A stretch of 24,884 nucleotides of DNA from a virus, in the IMG/VR virus record IMGVR_UViG_3300046002_000386, positions 1-24,884 of that record; one strand, given 5' to 3'. Each line of letters opens with the position of its first letter. Within the stretch, counting starts at the first letter, position 1. A program made the position numbers and the translations under genes. The notes under the pieces are model-generated. The model did no database searches and had not been told where the DNA came from. It saw only the letters and a list, made by a program, of their open reading frames with translations. Positions 2,155 through 5,605 of the stretch are shown piece after piece.

Positions 2155-2325
2155 ATGACACTGGATGAGATTAAACAAAACCTGCAAGATAGGAACCTTA
2201 AAGCGGTAGCTTTAAATACAGGCGTAAGCCCTCACACACTGTATAGATTAGTGCGCGGCATGGTTACACCCCACCCATCAACTTTGCAGGTAATTAGCAG
2301 CTACTTAAAGGCATCACATGGCTGA
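2155..2325 (+). CDS. Small XRE-type helix-turn-helix regulator (Cro-sized)
   Basis: 56 aa. It starts MTLDEIKQNLQDRNL and continues with an HTH-like segment AVALNTGVSPHTLYRLVRG (about residues 17-35), followed by HPSTLQVISSYL. The order 'LKAVA...TGVSPHTLYRLVRG' is the usual recognition-helix layout of the Cro/CI-like fold. AGAGGA precedes the ATG by about 5 nt. The stop (2323-2325) lies inside the primase coding region, 8 nt past its ATG, so the two are translationally linked. It is the first gene of the rightward transcript, the place occupied by cro in lambdoid phages. It probably represses one or both divergent promoters. No CI-like partner is visible nearby. Confidence 0.8.
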   Translation: MTLDEIKQNLQDRNLKAVALNTGVSPHTLYRLVRGMVTPHPSTLQVISSYLKASHG

Positions 2326-4117
2326 TATATCGCACATATTGGGCGGGTCATGGGAACCTACACAAAAATACGTTAAAAGCTGTGAAGATCAGCTACGTGA
2401 TGCAATGCTAGACCGTGGCATTACACCACCACCAGACCTATCTATAGATGGCAAATTGCACAGGTTTCGCAGTGGCACCAAAGGCGAAGGCGGTCACGAT
2501 AAGTCCGGCTGGTATGTAATTTATGGCGATGGCATACCATCGGGACAATTTGGAGATTGGCGCACTGGCGAGGCTATCAATTTCAGAGCTGACATTGGCC
2601 GTGATTTAAGCATGGCAGAGCAATTGACCAACACACGCCGGCAGGCCGAAGCTAAAGCCATGCGCGAAGCTGAGTTAAAGATAACACGGCAGGCGGCTGA
2701 AAACACCGTAGAAAAGATATGGGTTGAAGGCGGTATAGCAAGCGCACAGCATCCATACCTGACCCGTAAAGGCATACAGCCACACGGCGCAAGAGTAACC
2801 GGAGACGGGCGTTTAATCGTACCGCTTTACGGCATAGATAACAAACTTAGCAGCTTGCAATATATCGATGAATCAGGCGGTAAGTTGTATCACTCAGGCG
2901 GTCAAGCTGGGGGCAAATTTTGGATGATTGGCACGTTAGACGAGCCTGGCACGTTATACGTTGGCGAAGGCTTCGCAACCGCGGCCACTATCCATGAGAT
3001 TACTAAGCGGCCATGTGTAGTGGCTTACAGTGCAAGCAGTTTGCCGTCAGTCGTGCAAGCATGGCGCGAGAAGCTAGGCGTAACGCAAGAGATTGTTATC
3101 GTAGCTGATAACGATAGCCATGGCGTAGGCCAAAAGTATGCTGACCAAGCCAGTGCCAAATATGGGGCGCGGGTTGTAATGCCACCAATTGTAGGTATGG
3201 ATGCAAATGATTACTTAGTAGCAGGCCATGATTTAGCGGCATTGCTTAATCCACCAGCTAGCGATTGGCTAATTCAAGCCGATGATTTTTGCGCACAACC
3301 ATCACCCATTAGCTGGCTTGTAAAGAACTGGATACAGGCGCAGGCTCTTGTTATGGTGCATGGCCCATCTGGAGGCGGTAAAACGTTTGCAGTGCTAGAT
3401 TGGTGTTTACGCATTGCCAGTGGCGGCGGCTTATGGATGGATAAGCACAAAGTAAAGGCCGGCGGGATTGTGTACCTAGCAGGTGAAGGCCATCATGGTT
3501 TACGCGGTCGTGTAGCGGCATGGAAGCAGGCGCACGGCGTTAAAAAGTTAAATATGTGGCTAAGCAAAGACGGATGCGATTTAAACACACCAGAAGGTTA
3601 TTTACGTGTTGTAACAAATATCAGGGCATTGCCTAACGTTCCAGAGATCATAACGGTTGACACATTGCATAGATTTTTATTGGGCGATGAGAATAGCTCG
3701 CAGGATGCCAAAACCATGCTAGACGCATGCGCAGGCTTGATGCGTGAGTTTAATTGCACCGTGATACTTGTACACCATACCGGCGTATCAGACGAGGCGC
3801 AGCATAGGGCGCGCGGGTCTAGTGCGTGGCGTGGGGCATTAGACATTGAGATTAGCATCGTACCAAGCAAAGACGATAAGCCGATGGAGATCGTACAACG
3901 TAAGTCTAAAGATGCAGAGATGGCAGAGCCGATTTACGCCAATCTTGAAACCGTGGAGATTATCGGCTGGATAGATGAAGATGGCCATGTTGTAACCAGT
4001 GCAGTGCTTGTTGAGGCTCAGGCACCAGCCAAAGCCAATAAAAAAGAATCAAAATTTAGCTCTGAGGCGCGTGTGCTCGAAAATGCTTGGTGGTCAACAA
4101 AAGCAGAAACACGATAA
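2318..4117 (+). CDS. Bifunctional DNA primase (TOPRIM) / RepA-type replicative helicase
   Basis: 599 aa, with AAAGG before the ATG. The N-terminal part has a fold-like segment around SGWYVIYGDGIPSGQFGDWR. The TOPRIM core follows: Glu217 in VGEGFATA and D264/D266 in VADNDSHG, the metal-binding residues for primer synthesis. The C-terminal half is a RecA-type hexameric helicase of the AAA_25/RepA kind: Walker A GPSGGGKT at 349-356, Walker B ITVDTL with Asp448, and H486/H487 in LVHHTG, followed by RGSSAWRGALD. It would unwind and prime phage DNA during replication. The oddity is the end: the protein stops just after ENAWWSTKAETR. From memory of the family, this element is normally followed by a further domain of about 70-80 residues; here that sequence appears as a separate gene 193 nt downstream. 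Confidence 0.9.
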   Translation: MADISHILGGSWEPTQKYVKSCEDQLRDAMLDRGITPPPDLSIDGKLHRFRSGTKGEGGHDKSGWYVIYGDGIPSGQFGDWRTGEAINFRADIGRDLSMAEQLTNTRRQAEAKAMREAELKITRQAAENTVEKIWVEGGIASAQHPYLTRKGIQPHGARVTGDGRLIVPLYGIDNKLSSLQYIDESGGKLYHSGGQAGGKFWMIGTLDEPGTLYVGEGFATAATIHEITKRPCVVAYSASSLPSVVQAWREKLGVTQEIVIVADNDSHGVGQKYADQASAKYGARVVMPPIVGMDANDYLVAGHDLAALLNPPASDWLIQADDFCAQPSPISWLVKNWIQAQALVMVHGPSGGGKTFAVLDWCLRIASGGGLWMDKHKVKAGGIVYLAGEGHHGLRGRVAAWKQAHGVKKLNMWLSKDGCDLNTPEGYLRVVTNIRALPNVPEIITVDTLHRFLLGDENSSQDAKTMLDACAGLMREFNCTVILVHHTGVSDEAQHRARGSSAWRGALDIEISIVPSKDDKPMEIVQRKSKDAEMAEPIYANLETVEIIGWIDEDGHVVTSAVLVEAQAPAKANKKESKFSSEARVLENAWWSTKAETR

Positions 4118-4139
4118 CAAAAACAACCTAAAAAAACCC

Positions 4140-4169
4140 TTTACAACCCTAATCAATATGCTATATAAT
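4140..4169 (+). promoter_or_regulatory. Strong sigma-70-type promoter
   Basis: TTTACA (4140-4145, 5/6 match) and a perfect TATAAT (4164-4169) are separated by 18 nt in an AT-rich setting. The predicted transcript start is about 4176, at the base of the first hairpin. It would drive the two small genes at 4311 and 4550 and probably the terminase small subunit. Confidence 0.65.
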
Positions 4170-4174
4170 AAGTT

Positions 4175-4215
4175 TAGGGTAGTTAAAGGCGGCAAAAATT
4201 TCGTAAACTACCCTA
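4175..4215 (+). repeat. Inverted repeat / hairpin 1 of the leader
   Basis: TAGGGTAGTT (4175-4184) and AACTACCCTA (4206-4215) are perfect 10-bp complements around a 21-nt loop. Because TACCC is repeated to 4223, the left arm could pair in a second register. There is no U-tract after it, so it does not look like a simple terminator. It begins at the predicted +1 of the promoter. Confidence 0.6.
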
Positions 4216-4232
4216 CCCTACCCATACTCCTA

Positions 4233-4258
4233 TACCCCCAGTTAGTGAAACTGGGGTA
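4233..4258 (+). repeat. Inverted repeat / hairpin 2 of the leader
   Basis: CCCCAGTT (4236-4243) pairs with AACTGGGG (4249-4256) across the loop AGTGA. Two more pairs form outside a bulged C, giving a stem of about 10 bp. It is not followed by a U-tract. It stands 52 nt before the start codon at 4311 and leaves the ribosome site free. Confidence 0.6.
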
Positions 4259-4310
4259 AAGGTGAAAGGTAGGAGGGTCGTTCGGTAATGCGGTCAACTT
4301 TGGAGCAACT

Positions 4311-4553
4311 ATGAATTGGGAAAAAAACGGGTCAAGGCCCTATATCAGCGAAAGCGGTTTAAAAAATCATTTGGAAAAACAAGGGTACTCAGCAAGCAAA
4401 ATTCGCAAGGCGGTTGACCCGTCAAATGGCGATGGACTGATCGGAGGTTTGCTTCAAGCAAACATGATTGAAACATTTGAGCATGGCTGGATTGTCATTG
4501 ACGACACATGGGCCAGCGCAATGATGGTGAGTAAGCATGGGGCGTCAGAATGA
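4311..4553 (+). CDS. Detached C-terminal-like domain of the primase-helicase
   Basis: 80 aa, ATG preceded by TTTGGAG at good spacing, so it is translated independently. Residues 8-60 read as the small helical (winged-helix-like) domain found, by my recollection, at the end of many phage TOPRIM/RepA proteins: an RPYISESGL element, a helix to LEKQGYSASKI, a DPSNGDGLIGGLL turn-helix, then FEHGWIVIDD and WASAMM. The preceding primase stops exactly at the element (WWSTKAETR) that normally leads into this domain. It may act in trans on the helicase, or be a remnant that is still translated. The stop overlaps the next start (ATGA), so the two small genes are coupled. Confidence is good that it is a gene, moderate that it is the missing primase domain. 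Confidence 0.7.
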   Translation: MNWEKNGSRPYISESGLKNHLEKQGYSASKIRKAVDPSNGDGLIGGLLQANMIETFEHGWIVIDDTWASAMMVSKHGASE

Positions 4554-5113
4554 ATCAAAAATCCTTTTATAAGCTATGCCTTTATTTTGGCGCTTTTCCA
4601 GATAGCACAAACTTTACTGTTAAACGTGATGATTTTGTGAAGTGGATGGAGAGTCAAGGTTATGCAGAGCGCACAATTAACAACCATGCAGCCCCGTCAA
4701 GACCAGGAGGAATCATCAACCAACTTATGGAAGATGGCCTTATTGAAGATGGCGGAGTTAAGCGATGGAACGTCCCATGCGTACAAAAGCTTAATGCACA
4801 AAAGCCACGCATTAAAAAACCATCAATAAAGATGTTTGCAGGTAATCCACCAGATGGTGATGGCTGGATTACTAGCACTAGGCTTGATGATGAGAATGAA
4901 TTAGGCATTGAATGGCGGTTGTTTCGCAAAGAATATGCGCCAAATTGCAATAACCTAAAAGTTGTGGCTATTGGTAAGCGCGTTCCTCACAAAGCAAATT
5001 ACTGGCTTTCATCAAAAAACGGAAAATTACTTATGACTAAAAATGCCGTGCTACTTAAACAACACCGGCCTGATATTTTTGATAATCTTAGCGAAGATTT
5101 AGAGGATTTATGA
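4550..5113 (+). CDS. Unknown protein with an N-terminal copy of the primase-tail domain
   Basis: 187 aa, starting in an ATGA overlap with the 80-aa gene. Residues 25-72 align with that protein without large gaps: FVKWMESQGYAERTI against LKNHLEKQGYSASKI, then PSRPGGIINQL against PSNGDGLIGGL, then GLIE against NMIE. The two genes therefore look like a tandem pair sharing one domain. The C-terminal 100 residues contain GDGWITSTRLDDENELGIEW and a basic segment with GKRVPHKANYWLSSKNGKLL, and end in an acidic tail (LSEDLEDL). I recognise no catalytic motif. A DNA- or primase-binding role is the most economical guess, given the shared domain and the position after the replication gene. Confidence 0.65.
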   Translation: MNQKSFYKLCLYFGAFPDSTNFTVKRDDFVKWMESQGYAERTINNHAAPSRPGGIINQLMEDGLIEDGGVKRWNVPCVQKLNAQKPRIKKPSIKMFAGNPPDGDGWITSTRLDDENELGIEWRLFRKEYAPNCNNLKVVAIGKRVPHKANYWLSSKNGKLLMTKNAVLLKQHRPDIFDNLSEDLEDL

Positions 5114-5152
5114 AGCACCACCAAGAAACCTTTAACTTTGCAACATGGAAAT

Positions 5153-5605
5153 ATGAAATACAATAAACCAATGAACACGAAAACACACACATCAAAAGCG
5201 CGGCCAATTGAAGATAAGCAAGCAATAGCTGCAAACGTTTTTAATTGCATGCGCAGTGGTATGAGTGCATACAAGGCTTGCGTAGCCTCTGGCGTGCCTC
5301 AGAGCACGTTTAATCATTGGTTGAATGATGACGCAACCATGGCGGTAGAATATGCGCGCGCGAGGGAAGACTTGCAAGAATTGATAGCCTCGCAAATCAT
5401 GGAGATTGCAGACCAAGCGCCGGCGCTTACTGCGAATGGTAGCGTGGACACTGGGGCGGTGCAAAAACAAAAGCTACAGATTGATACACGGCGCTGGCTA
5501 TTGTCCAAGCTGGCACCTAAGAAGTACGGCGATAAACTGGAGGTGTCCGGAGATGCGGCAAATCCAATTGCAATACAGCGCATTGAGCGAGTGATCGTAA
5601 AATAA
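5153..5605 (+). CDS. terS: Terminase small subunit
   Basis: 150 aa from ATG 5153. A TTG at 5138 and an ATG at 5171 are alternative in-frame starts, and no ribosome site is decisive. The N-terminal half holds a helix-turn-helix: GMSAYKACVASGVPQSTFNHWL, read as SAYKACVASGV then STFNHWL. It is followed by DATMAVEYARAREDLQELIA and then the family signature TRRWLLSKLAPKKYGDKLEV, ending in a beta strand (IERVIVK). This is the small terminase type that binds the packaging site on phage DNA as an oligomeric ring and hands it to the large subunit. The large subunit lies 824 nt further on; three small genes separate them. Confidence 0.9.
   Translation: MKYNKPMNTKTHTSKARPIEDKQAIAANVFNCMRSGMSAYKACVASGVPQSTFNHWLNDDATMAVEYARAREDLQELIASQIMEIADQAPALTANGSVDTGAVQKQKLQIDTRRWLLSKLAPKKYGDKLEVSGDAANPIAIQRIERVIVK

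Follow-up and report, generated by a model that had tools for sequence, protein, structure and literature searches.

The window analyzed here, a stretch of 24,884 nucleotides (nt) covering positions 1 to 24,884 of the IMG/VR virus record IMGVR_UViG_3300046002_000386, encodes a 599-amino-acid (aa) TOPRIM/RepA-type primase-helicase that terminates in WWSTKAETR* and, 193 nt 3' of its stop codon, an 80-aa protein (ORF80). A minus-strand divergent operon (30 to 2123) lies upstream and codes for an SSB-like protein, a PHROG 2480 protein, a MazG-like pyrophosphatase, and a Sak4-like annealing ATPase; downstream, at 5138 to 5605 on the plus strand, lies the gene for the terminase small subunit. The features of the intervening region are as follows, with the evidence for each in parentheses.

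2318 to 4117, plus strand: primase-helicase body without its C-terminal domain, 599 aa (Pfam; comparison with intact relatives)
4040 to 4114, plus strand: linker/tail KKESKF...AETR, imported with the exchanged cassette, whose left edge it marks (identity breaks)
4140 to 4169, plus strand: promoter-like TTTACA-18-TATAAT ahead of ORF80 (11/12 match)
4171 to 4303, plus strand: putative replication origin, an iteron/hairpin element with the layout found downstream of intact primases (profile match)
4177 to 4182, plus strand: GGGTAG iteron
4208 to 4223, minus strand: three overlapping inverted GGGTAG iterons, CTACCCTACCCTACCC
4229 to 4262, plus strand: hairpin CCTATACCCCCAGTT/AACTGGGGTAAAGG inside the element (pairing in four sequences)
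4302 to 4305, plus strand: ribosome-binding site GGAG of ORF80 (sequence; conserved in split relatives)
4311 to 4553, plus strand: ORF80, the detached C-terminal domain, a putative origin-binding winged helix (alignment, dN/dS, AlphaFold2 [AF2])
4550 to 5113, plus strand: ORF187, a second winged-helix domain plus another domain; right cassette edge (hhalign, ORF matches)

Pfam searches place a Toprim_3 domain at residues 213 to 302 of the primase-helicase (E = 8.8e-11) and an AAA_25/RepA-type helicase at residues 320 to 491 (E = 1.1e-33), both within the one 599-aa chain; the only PDB match of the family profile is the RSF1010 RepA helicase (1g8y; E = 2.4e-11), which aligns with the helicase domain. 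A search of IMG/VR with the primase as the query recovered 40 loci, and those with readable 3' ends are all intact except L012, which is the window's own virus and identical to it, and L013. The intact relatives are mostly 660 to 673 aa long, and 35+ of them carry about 70 C-terminal residues beyond the end of the window body. When ORF80 is aligned with six intact phage proteins (from Idiomarinaceae phage 1N2-2, Salicola phage CGphi29, two Alteromonas phages, and two environmental phages), it covers exactly this missing C terminus, beginning where the window body ends (AETR|NGSRPYIS versus AEERNGLPYIS in the intact relatives), and as a tblastn query it matches the C terminus of nearly all relatives tested. 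The domain is thus absent from the primase-helicase polypeptide of the window and present in that of its intact relatives; among homologs outside the cassette described below, termination at the last residue of the window protein is not the norm. These alignments bear out the sequence-only reading of the locus, in which the primase-helicase was held to stop after WWSTKAETR and its C-terminal domain to reappear 193 nt later as an 80-aa gene. ORF80 shows no significant family in Pfam, PHROGs, or NCBIfam.

Searches with ORF80 and ORF187 added the loci L051, L052, L053, L054, and L223, in each of which a body running to AETR (AETRHQKLP in L054) is followed by a spacer and then by the standalone domain. 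In total, seven distinct contigs in IMG/VR, including one that is identical to the window, have the complete split, and L063, whose contig begins inside ORF80, is probably a further case. The last ORF80-type search, comprising 78 loci, recovered 7 standalone and 68 fused copies of the domain, with 3 cut by the contig end, and all 7 standalone copies belong to one cassette type. The spacer is 196 to 197 nt long and well conserved in split contigs of several metagenomes, so that the split is due neither to faulty assembly nor to a single base error; the insufficiency of the latter had already been proposed from the stop codons between the two genes, which indeed occur in all frames. ORF80 is under strong purifying selection, with dN/dS values of 0.04 to 0.16 in pairwise comparisons. 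Its start codon and ribosome-binding site are conserved in the split relatives, as is the TTTACA-18-TATAAT-like (sigma-70-like) promoter in the other split contigs (two promoter-like sites were found in the region versus a mean of 0.5 in shuffles), so that the earlier description of a separate gene with its own promoter and ribosome-binding site also holds. The split is therefore real with near certainty. The notion that the primase merely lost its end, with ORF80 as a remnant or an assembly error, can point to a lone in-frame stop codon (WFD*GAEV) in the same linker of L098, a single contig of an otherwise intact relative in which we take the stop to be a nonsense mutation or an error; against the identical layout of seven contigs from several metagenomes and the selection on ORF80 and its expression signals, we give this notion a next-to-negligible chance and reject it.

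Scarcely more credible is the idea that a single full-length protein is still made, whether ribosomes bypass or frameshift across the 211 nt between the AETR and NGS codons or the RNA is spliced there. The near-seamless join of the coding parts (AETR|NGSRPYIS) and the conserved, structured spacer would suit such a product, but the spacer contains no Rfam intron family (only chance-level matches were obtained), and its first ~45 nt in the window lack any G and thus offer neither a group I guide nor a GUGYG start. Moreover, the stops that fill all frames vary between relatives, as does the end of the body's tail, to which L054 adds HQKLP; ORF80 has a conserved ribosome-binding site and start of its own; and the spacer resembles elements that lie outside the intact genes. 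In the absence of an intron family and of a group I or II start, and with stops in all frames, introns and bypassing were rejected.

The AF2 model of ORF80, computed with 81 relatives in the alignment, has a pLDDT of 87.6 and a predicted element order of E-H-H-H-E-E-H, as in the winged helix, with the second helix at residues 28 to 35. Foldseek comparison with PDB folds returned no significant match (best E = 0.5), and comparison with PDB sequences likewise recovered nothing significant; since no solved structure matches significantly, the name winged helix rests on topology. In a viral fold library, one uncultured-phage Prim_Pol protein was matched (E = 1.5e-5). From the model, together with the covariation described below, we read the domain as, most likely, a winged helix that binds the origin. 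The same C-terminal domain was also observed on proteins with another N terminus, namely, L006 (MW202867.1) and the BFVD entry A0A6J5RWR5 (annotated as Prim_Pol), and hence it seems to have been exchanged between primase types too.

Directly behind the intact primase genes we observed iterons, the first of them a median of 19 nt past the stop codon and with a median of eight copies, which are phage-specific hexamers, mostly of the form GGNNNN, arranged around a GGGGCAAAACAGCG-type spacer plus a hairpin in elements about 140 to 190 nt long. In L008, L015, L020, and L047 a conserved ORF of ~76 aa (weak PHROG 7597) lies between the primase and the element. A TIGR-Tas array, such as the one carried by the relative CGphi29, was considered and rejected, the Nop-domain Tas protein (PF01798) being absent from the window record, itself a fragment.

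The iterons vary with the C-terminal domain. Across 106 loci, iteron similarity correlates with the similarity of the C-terminal domains once the body is controlled for (partial Mantel r = 0.60; 0/999 permutations) and not with body similarity once the domain is controlled for (partial Mantel, -0.05). Likewise, among bodies less than 15% apart, the mean iteron distance is 0.99 for the 112 pairs with unlike domains versus 0.68 for the 177 pairs with like domains. The alignment columns most informative on the iteron class correspond to ORF80 residues 26, 34, 33, 32, 36, and 39, which lie on or around the predicted recognition helix, and residues 28 to 42 average 0.85 in informativeness versus 0.33 to 0.53 elsewhere, with both the covariation and the mutual information partly confounded by relatedness. 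Individual pairings are clear: SAK[QL]YIKPS domains occur with GGTAAC iterons, SAKVYIKPS domains with (G/C)GGAAC, AERTVRNMxNPSY domains with GGGTCA, and KPRTIENDLSxAY domains with GGGGGC. The C-terminal domains of L087 and L096 differ in three residues (QYIKPSSP versus VYIKPSAT) and their iterons are GGTAAC and GGGAAC, respectively; elements of the GGAAC class often retain one GGTAAC, as if in transition. KPGYPDQ is paired with GGTCCG (L111, L114, L115, and L144) and KPGSADQ (RPGSADQ in L112) with GGTACG (L112 and L113), a difference that possibly reflects a short-range recognition rule. Four loci (L044, L069, L130, and L135) are misfits to the general pattern. L044 has a body ~88% identical to that of the window, yet it carries ACTAGTA iterons, outside the GGNNNN pattern, and a distinct C-terminal domain.

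Given the covariation and the informative helix columns, a sequence-reading, origin-binding role is the best reading of the domain, and these comparisons make it very probable that the C-terminal domain is the iteron reader. Accordingly, the suggestion that the tail is a primase domain stands insofar as it is the C-terminal domain of the primase-helicase that has been detached, but its function is best read as origin recognition rather than primase activity. The iterons might instead be operators of a transcription switch, with the C-terminal domain as an autoregulatory DNA binder: the DNA behind the gene in which the elements are found is intergenic, the region is overlapped in the window by a promoter-like site, and a gene for an HTH regulator (2155 to 2325) precedes the primase. 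We consider this quite improbable in view of the length of the elements, with their several iteron copies and hairpin, and of their position directly behind the primase-helicase, which is that reported for the SaPI and SCCmec initiators (PMC7581432); pRN1 offers a comparable position, without iterons (PMC4234260).

An element of this kind is found in the spacer of the window. A GGGTA-class profile constructed from three elements behind intact primases (L020, L047, and L123) has its best window match at 4171 to 4303 (E = 5.6e-6), where it scores 19.7 bits versus a maximum of 7.5 in 500 dinucleotide shuffles; the GGGGGC-class profile matches the same element weakly (E = 0.015). A DNA profile pooled from 64 elements missed it, its best match being elsewhere (E = 0.31), because the iterons differ by class. 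The iterons of the element are few: four of the nine GGGTAG copies in the window fall within 47 nt of each other there, the count of GGGTAG or of the maximal hexamer in the spacer not being significant against Markov-model shuffles (p = 0.33). Comparison of the window with L013 gives an identity of 86% for the spacer versus 78 to 83% for the flanking coding DNA. In the hairpin, 98% of the cells are paired and two pairs are changed on both sides, in an alignment of four sequences and hence with weak statistics; folding of the whole spacer as RNA is not exceptional (z = -1.4). In the window, the element lies between the truncated body and the domain. Since the profile that matches it was derived from behind intact genes, the presumed origin and the domain have swapped places, and the order body-domain-origin became body-origin-domain. 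The recognition segment of ORF80, SASKIRKAVDPSNGD, differs from those of the intact GGGTA-class domains, so that it is the position and layout of the element, rather than the residues, by which its specificity is assigned.

The neighboring ORF187 contributes a second domain of the same type; neither this domain nor the conserved element in the spacer had been noted in the sequence-only reading. Its N terminus (residues 24 to 68) is a paralog of the C-terminal domain (hhalign probability, 97.1; E = 5.8e-11), with an invariant recognition segment, AERTINNHAAPSR, that is somewhat like the AERTIVNMLTPSR of L020, an intact GGGTA-class phage. Its C-terminal half matches short standalone ORFs behind the primase in L002, L018, L019, L037, and L038, and a fold search of ORF187 against the PDB returned nothing significant. 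The iteron reader of the window could be ORF80, ORF187, or both as a mixed dimer.

Comparison of closely related phages delimits the cassette to which these genes belong. The window and L009 share ~93% DNA identity up to ~4040, where it collapses, and the identity between L013 and L015 breaks at the same codons; conversely, the window and L013 are ~63% identical before ~4040 and 81 to 87% identical from there on. The shared cassette ends with ORF187 and thus spans ~4040 to 5113, or ~1 kb. The bodies to which it is attached have different affinities: that of the window has ~96% protein identity to those of the intact GGTAAC phages L008, L009, and L036, that of L013 is 98% identical to that of the intact L015, and the remaining split bodies are near still other intact phages. 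On the body tree the split requires five label changes, and the grouping of all split bodies in one clade is rejected (p-AU = 3.6e-31). This tree pattern and the sharp breaks in the linker show that the cassette, comprising the tail, presumed origin, ORF80, and ORF187, has been exchanged among at least five backbones, and they suggest that the split did not originate in the window phage but was acquired by it.

We propose that ORF80 is a separate origin-recognition protein that acts with the primase-helicase on a displaced origin, a reading to which we assign a probability of roughly 0.7. The intact family would constitute a three-part initiator, with a TOPRIM primase, a RepA-type ring helicase, and a C-terminal winged helix that reads iterons in an origin directly behind the primase-helicase gene. 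In the window, as a consequence of the changed gene order, the domain is a free-standing protein of 80 aa whose gene has a promoter and a ribosome-binding site of its own, and a second such domain follows on ORF187. ORF80, perhaps together with ORF187, would bind the GGGTAG element at 4171 to 4303 and bring the primase-helicase to it in trans, probably via the imported tail SKFSSEARVLENAWWSTKAETR. The comparisons show the split with its conservation and selection, the identity of the domain, its covariation with the iterons across the family, and the exchange of the cassette; DNA binding, origin function, action in trans, and the assignment of iteron reading to one or the other protein are what we infer from them, and we regard the supply of origin recognition in trans by ORF80 as probable. 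By recombination in the linker, the ~4040-to-5113 cassette would move between phages, and the recipient would gain a new origin type. More tentatively, and with rather less than even odds, this ~1-kb origin-recognition cassette may act in trans with divergent backbones, its two paralogous winged-helix proteins forming a mixed initiator, and phages may swap such cassettes to change their origin type, possibly escaping origin-directed attack or competition; the driver of the exchange is speculation.

Alternatively, ORF80 might be a regulator, i.e., a free copy of the origin-binding domain that limits copy number through mixed dimers or through competition for the iterons, with initiation left to ORF187 or a host factor. 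The tandem of paralogous domains in ORF80 and the N terminus of ORF187 would suit such a role, for which P4 offers a precedent in a second winged-helix protein (Yeo et al. 2002, to go by its title; cited in PMC4234260), and, as a promoter-like site just precedes the iterons, autoregulation is easy to imagine. Yet ORF80 is the exact part missing from the primase-helicase and is conserved on five backbones, and something must supply origin recognition, since the primase body of the same phages is without such a domain. We therefore consider the regulator unlikely and favor ORF80 as the origin-recognition protein.

Origin-reading domains fused in phage initiators, and separate ones in plasmids, are already known. 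Because the present family shows both the fused and the detached states, the uncoupling of origin recognition from the primase-helicase, and the purpose of the fusion, become directly testable. In addition, the ~100 natural domain/iteron pairs, some of them three residues apart, make up a preliminary table of recognition by a small winged helix, and phage origins that can be interchanged could come from them. A literature search, in which few subscription papers were covered, returned no description of the origins of these primase-helicases or of their split.

Among known systems, to which the intact family adds a new member, the P4 alpha protein combines a TOPRIM primase, a helicase, and a winged helix that binds origin repeats in one chain (PMC4234260), and, as Yeo et al. 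2002 state in their title (PMC4234260 cites the paper), the P4 origin-binding domain is regulated by homo- and heterodimerization of winged-helix proteins. The intact relatives show the same three functions in the same order, with a predicted C-terminal winged helix and short iterons. They differ in having a helicase of the RSF1010-RepA type and a domain for which no solved origin-binding domain gave a sequence match or a significant fold match; the window, furthermore, encodes this domain as a separate protein beyond the presumed origin and adds a second paralog. SaPI Rep and SCCmec Cch2 read iterons immediately behind their genes with the C-terminal domain, which in Cch2 binds its iterons when isolated (PMC7581432). 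The intact relatives likewise have iterons directly behind the gene, which their C-terminal domain would read. The SaPI and SCCmec proteins, however, have MCM/D5-type helicases without a fused TOPRIM primase, unlike the AAA_25/RepA-type helicase of the phages, and no split is described for them in the available text of PMC7581432. In the Vibrio satellite PLE, the initiator's DNA-binding domain covaries with the origin and shuffles with it as a module among backbones (PMC8263062), but the initiator, RepA_N, belongs to another protein family, and there the domain is N terminal and no gene is split. RSF1010 uses three proteins, of which a separate one, RepC, recognizes the iterons (PMC4234260). 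Its RepA is the sole PDB relative of the phage helicase, and ORF80, with its presumed role in origin recognition, is similarly separate from the helicase. In IncQ RSF1010 (RepA/RepB'/RepC), however, the primase is separate too, whereas in the window the primase and helicase stay fused and only origin recognition would be detached; the window cassette thus represents a variant in which origin recognition appears to have been uncoupled from the initiator.
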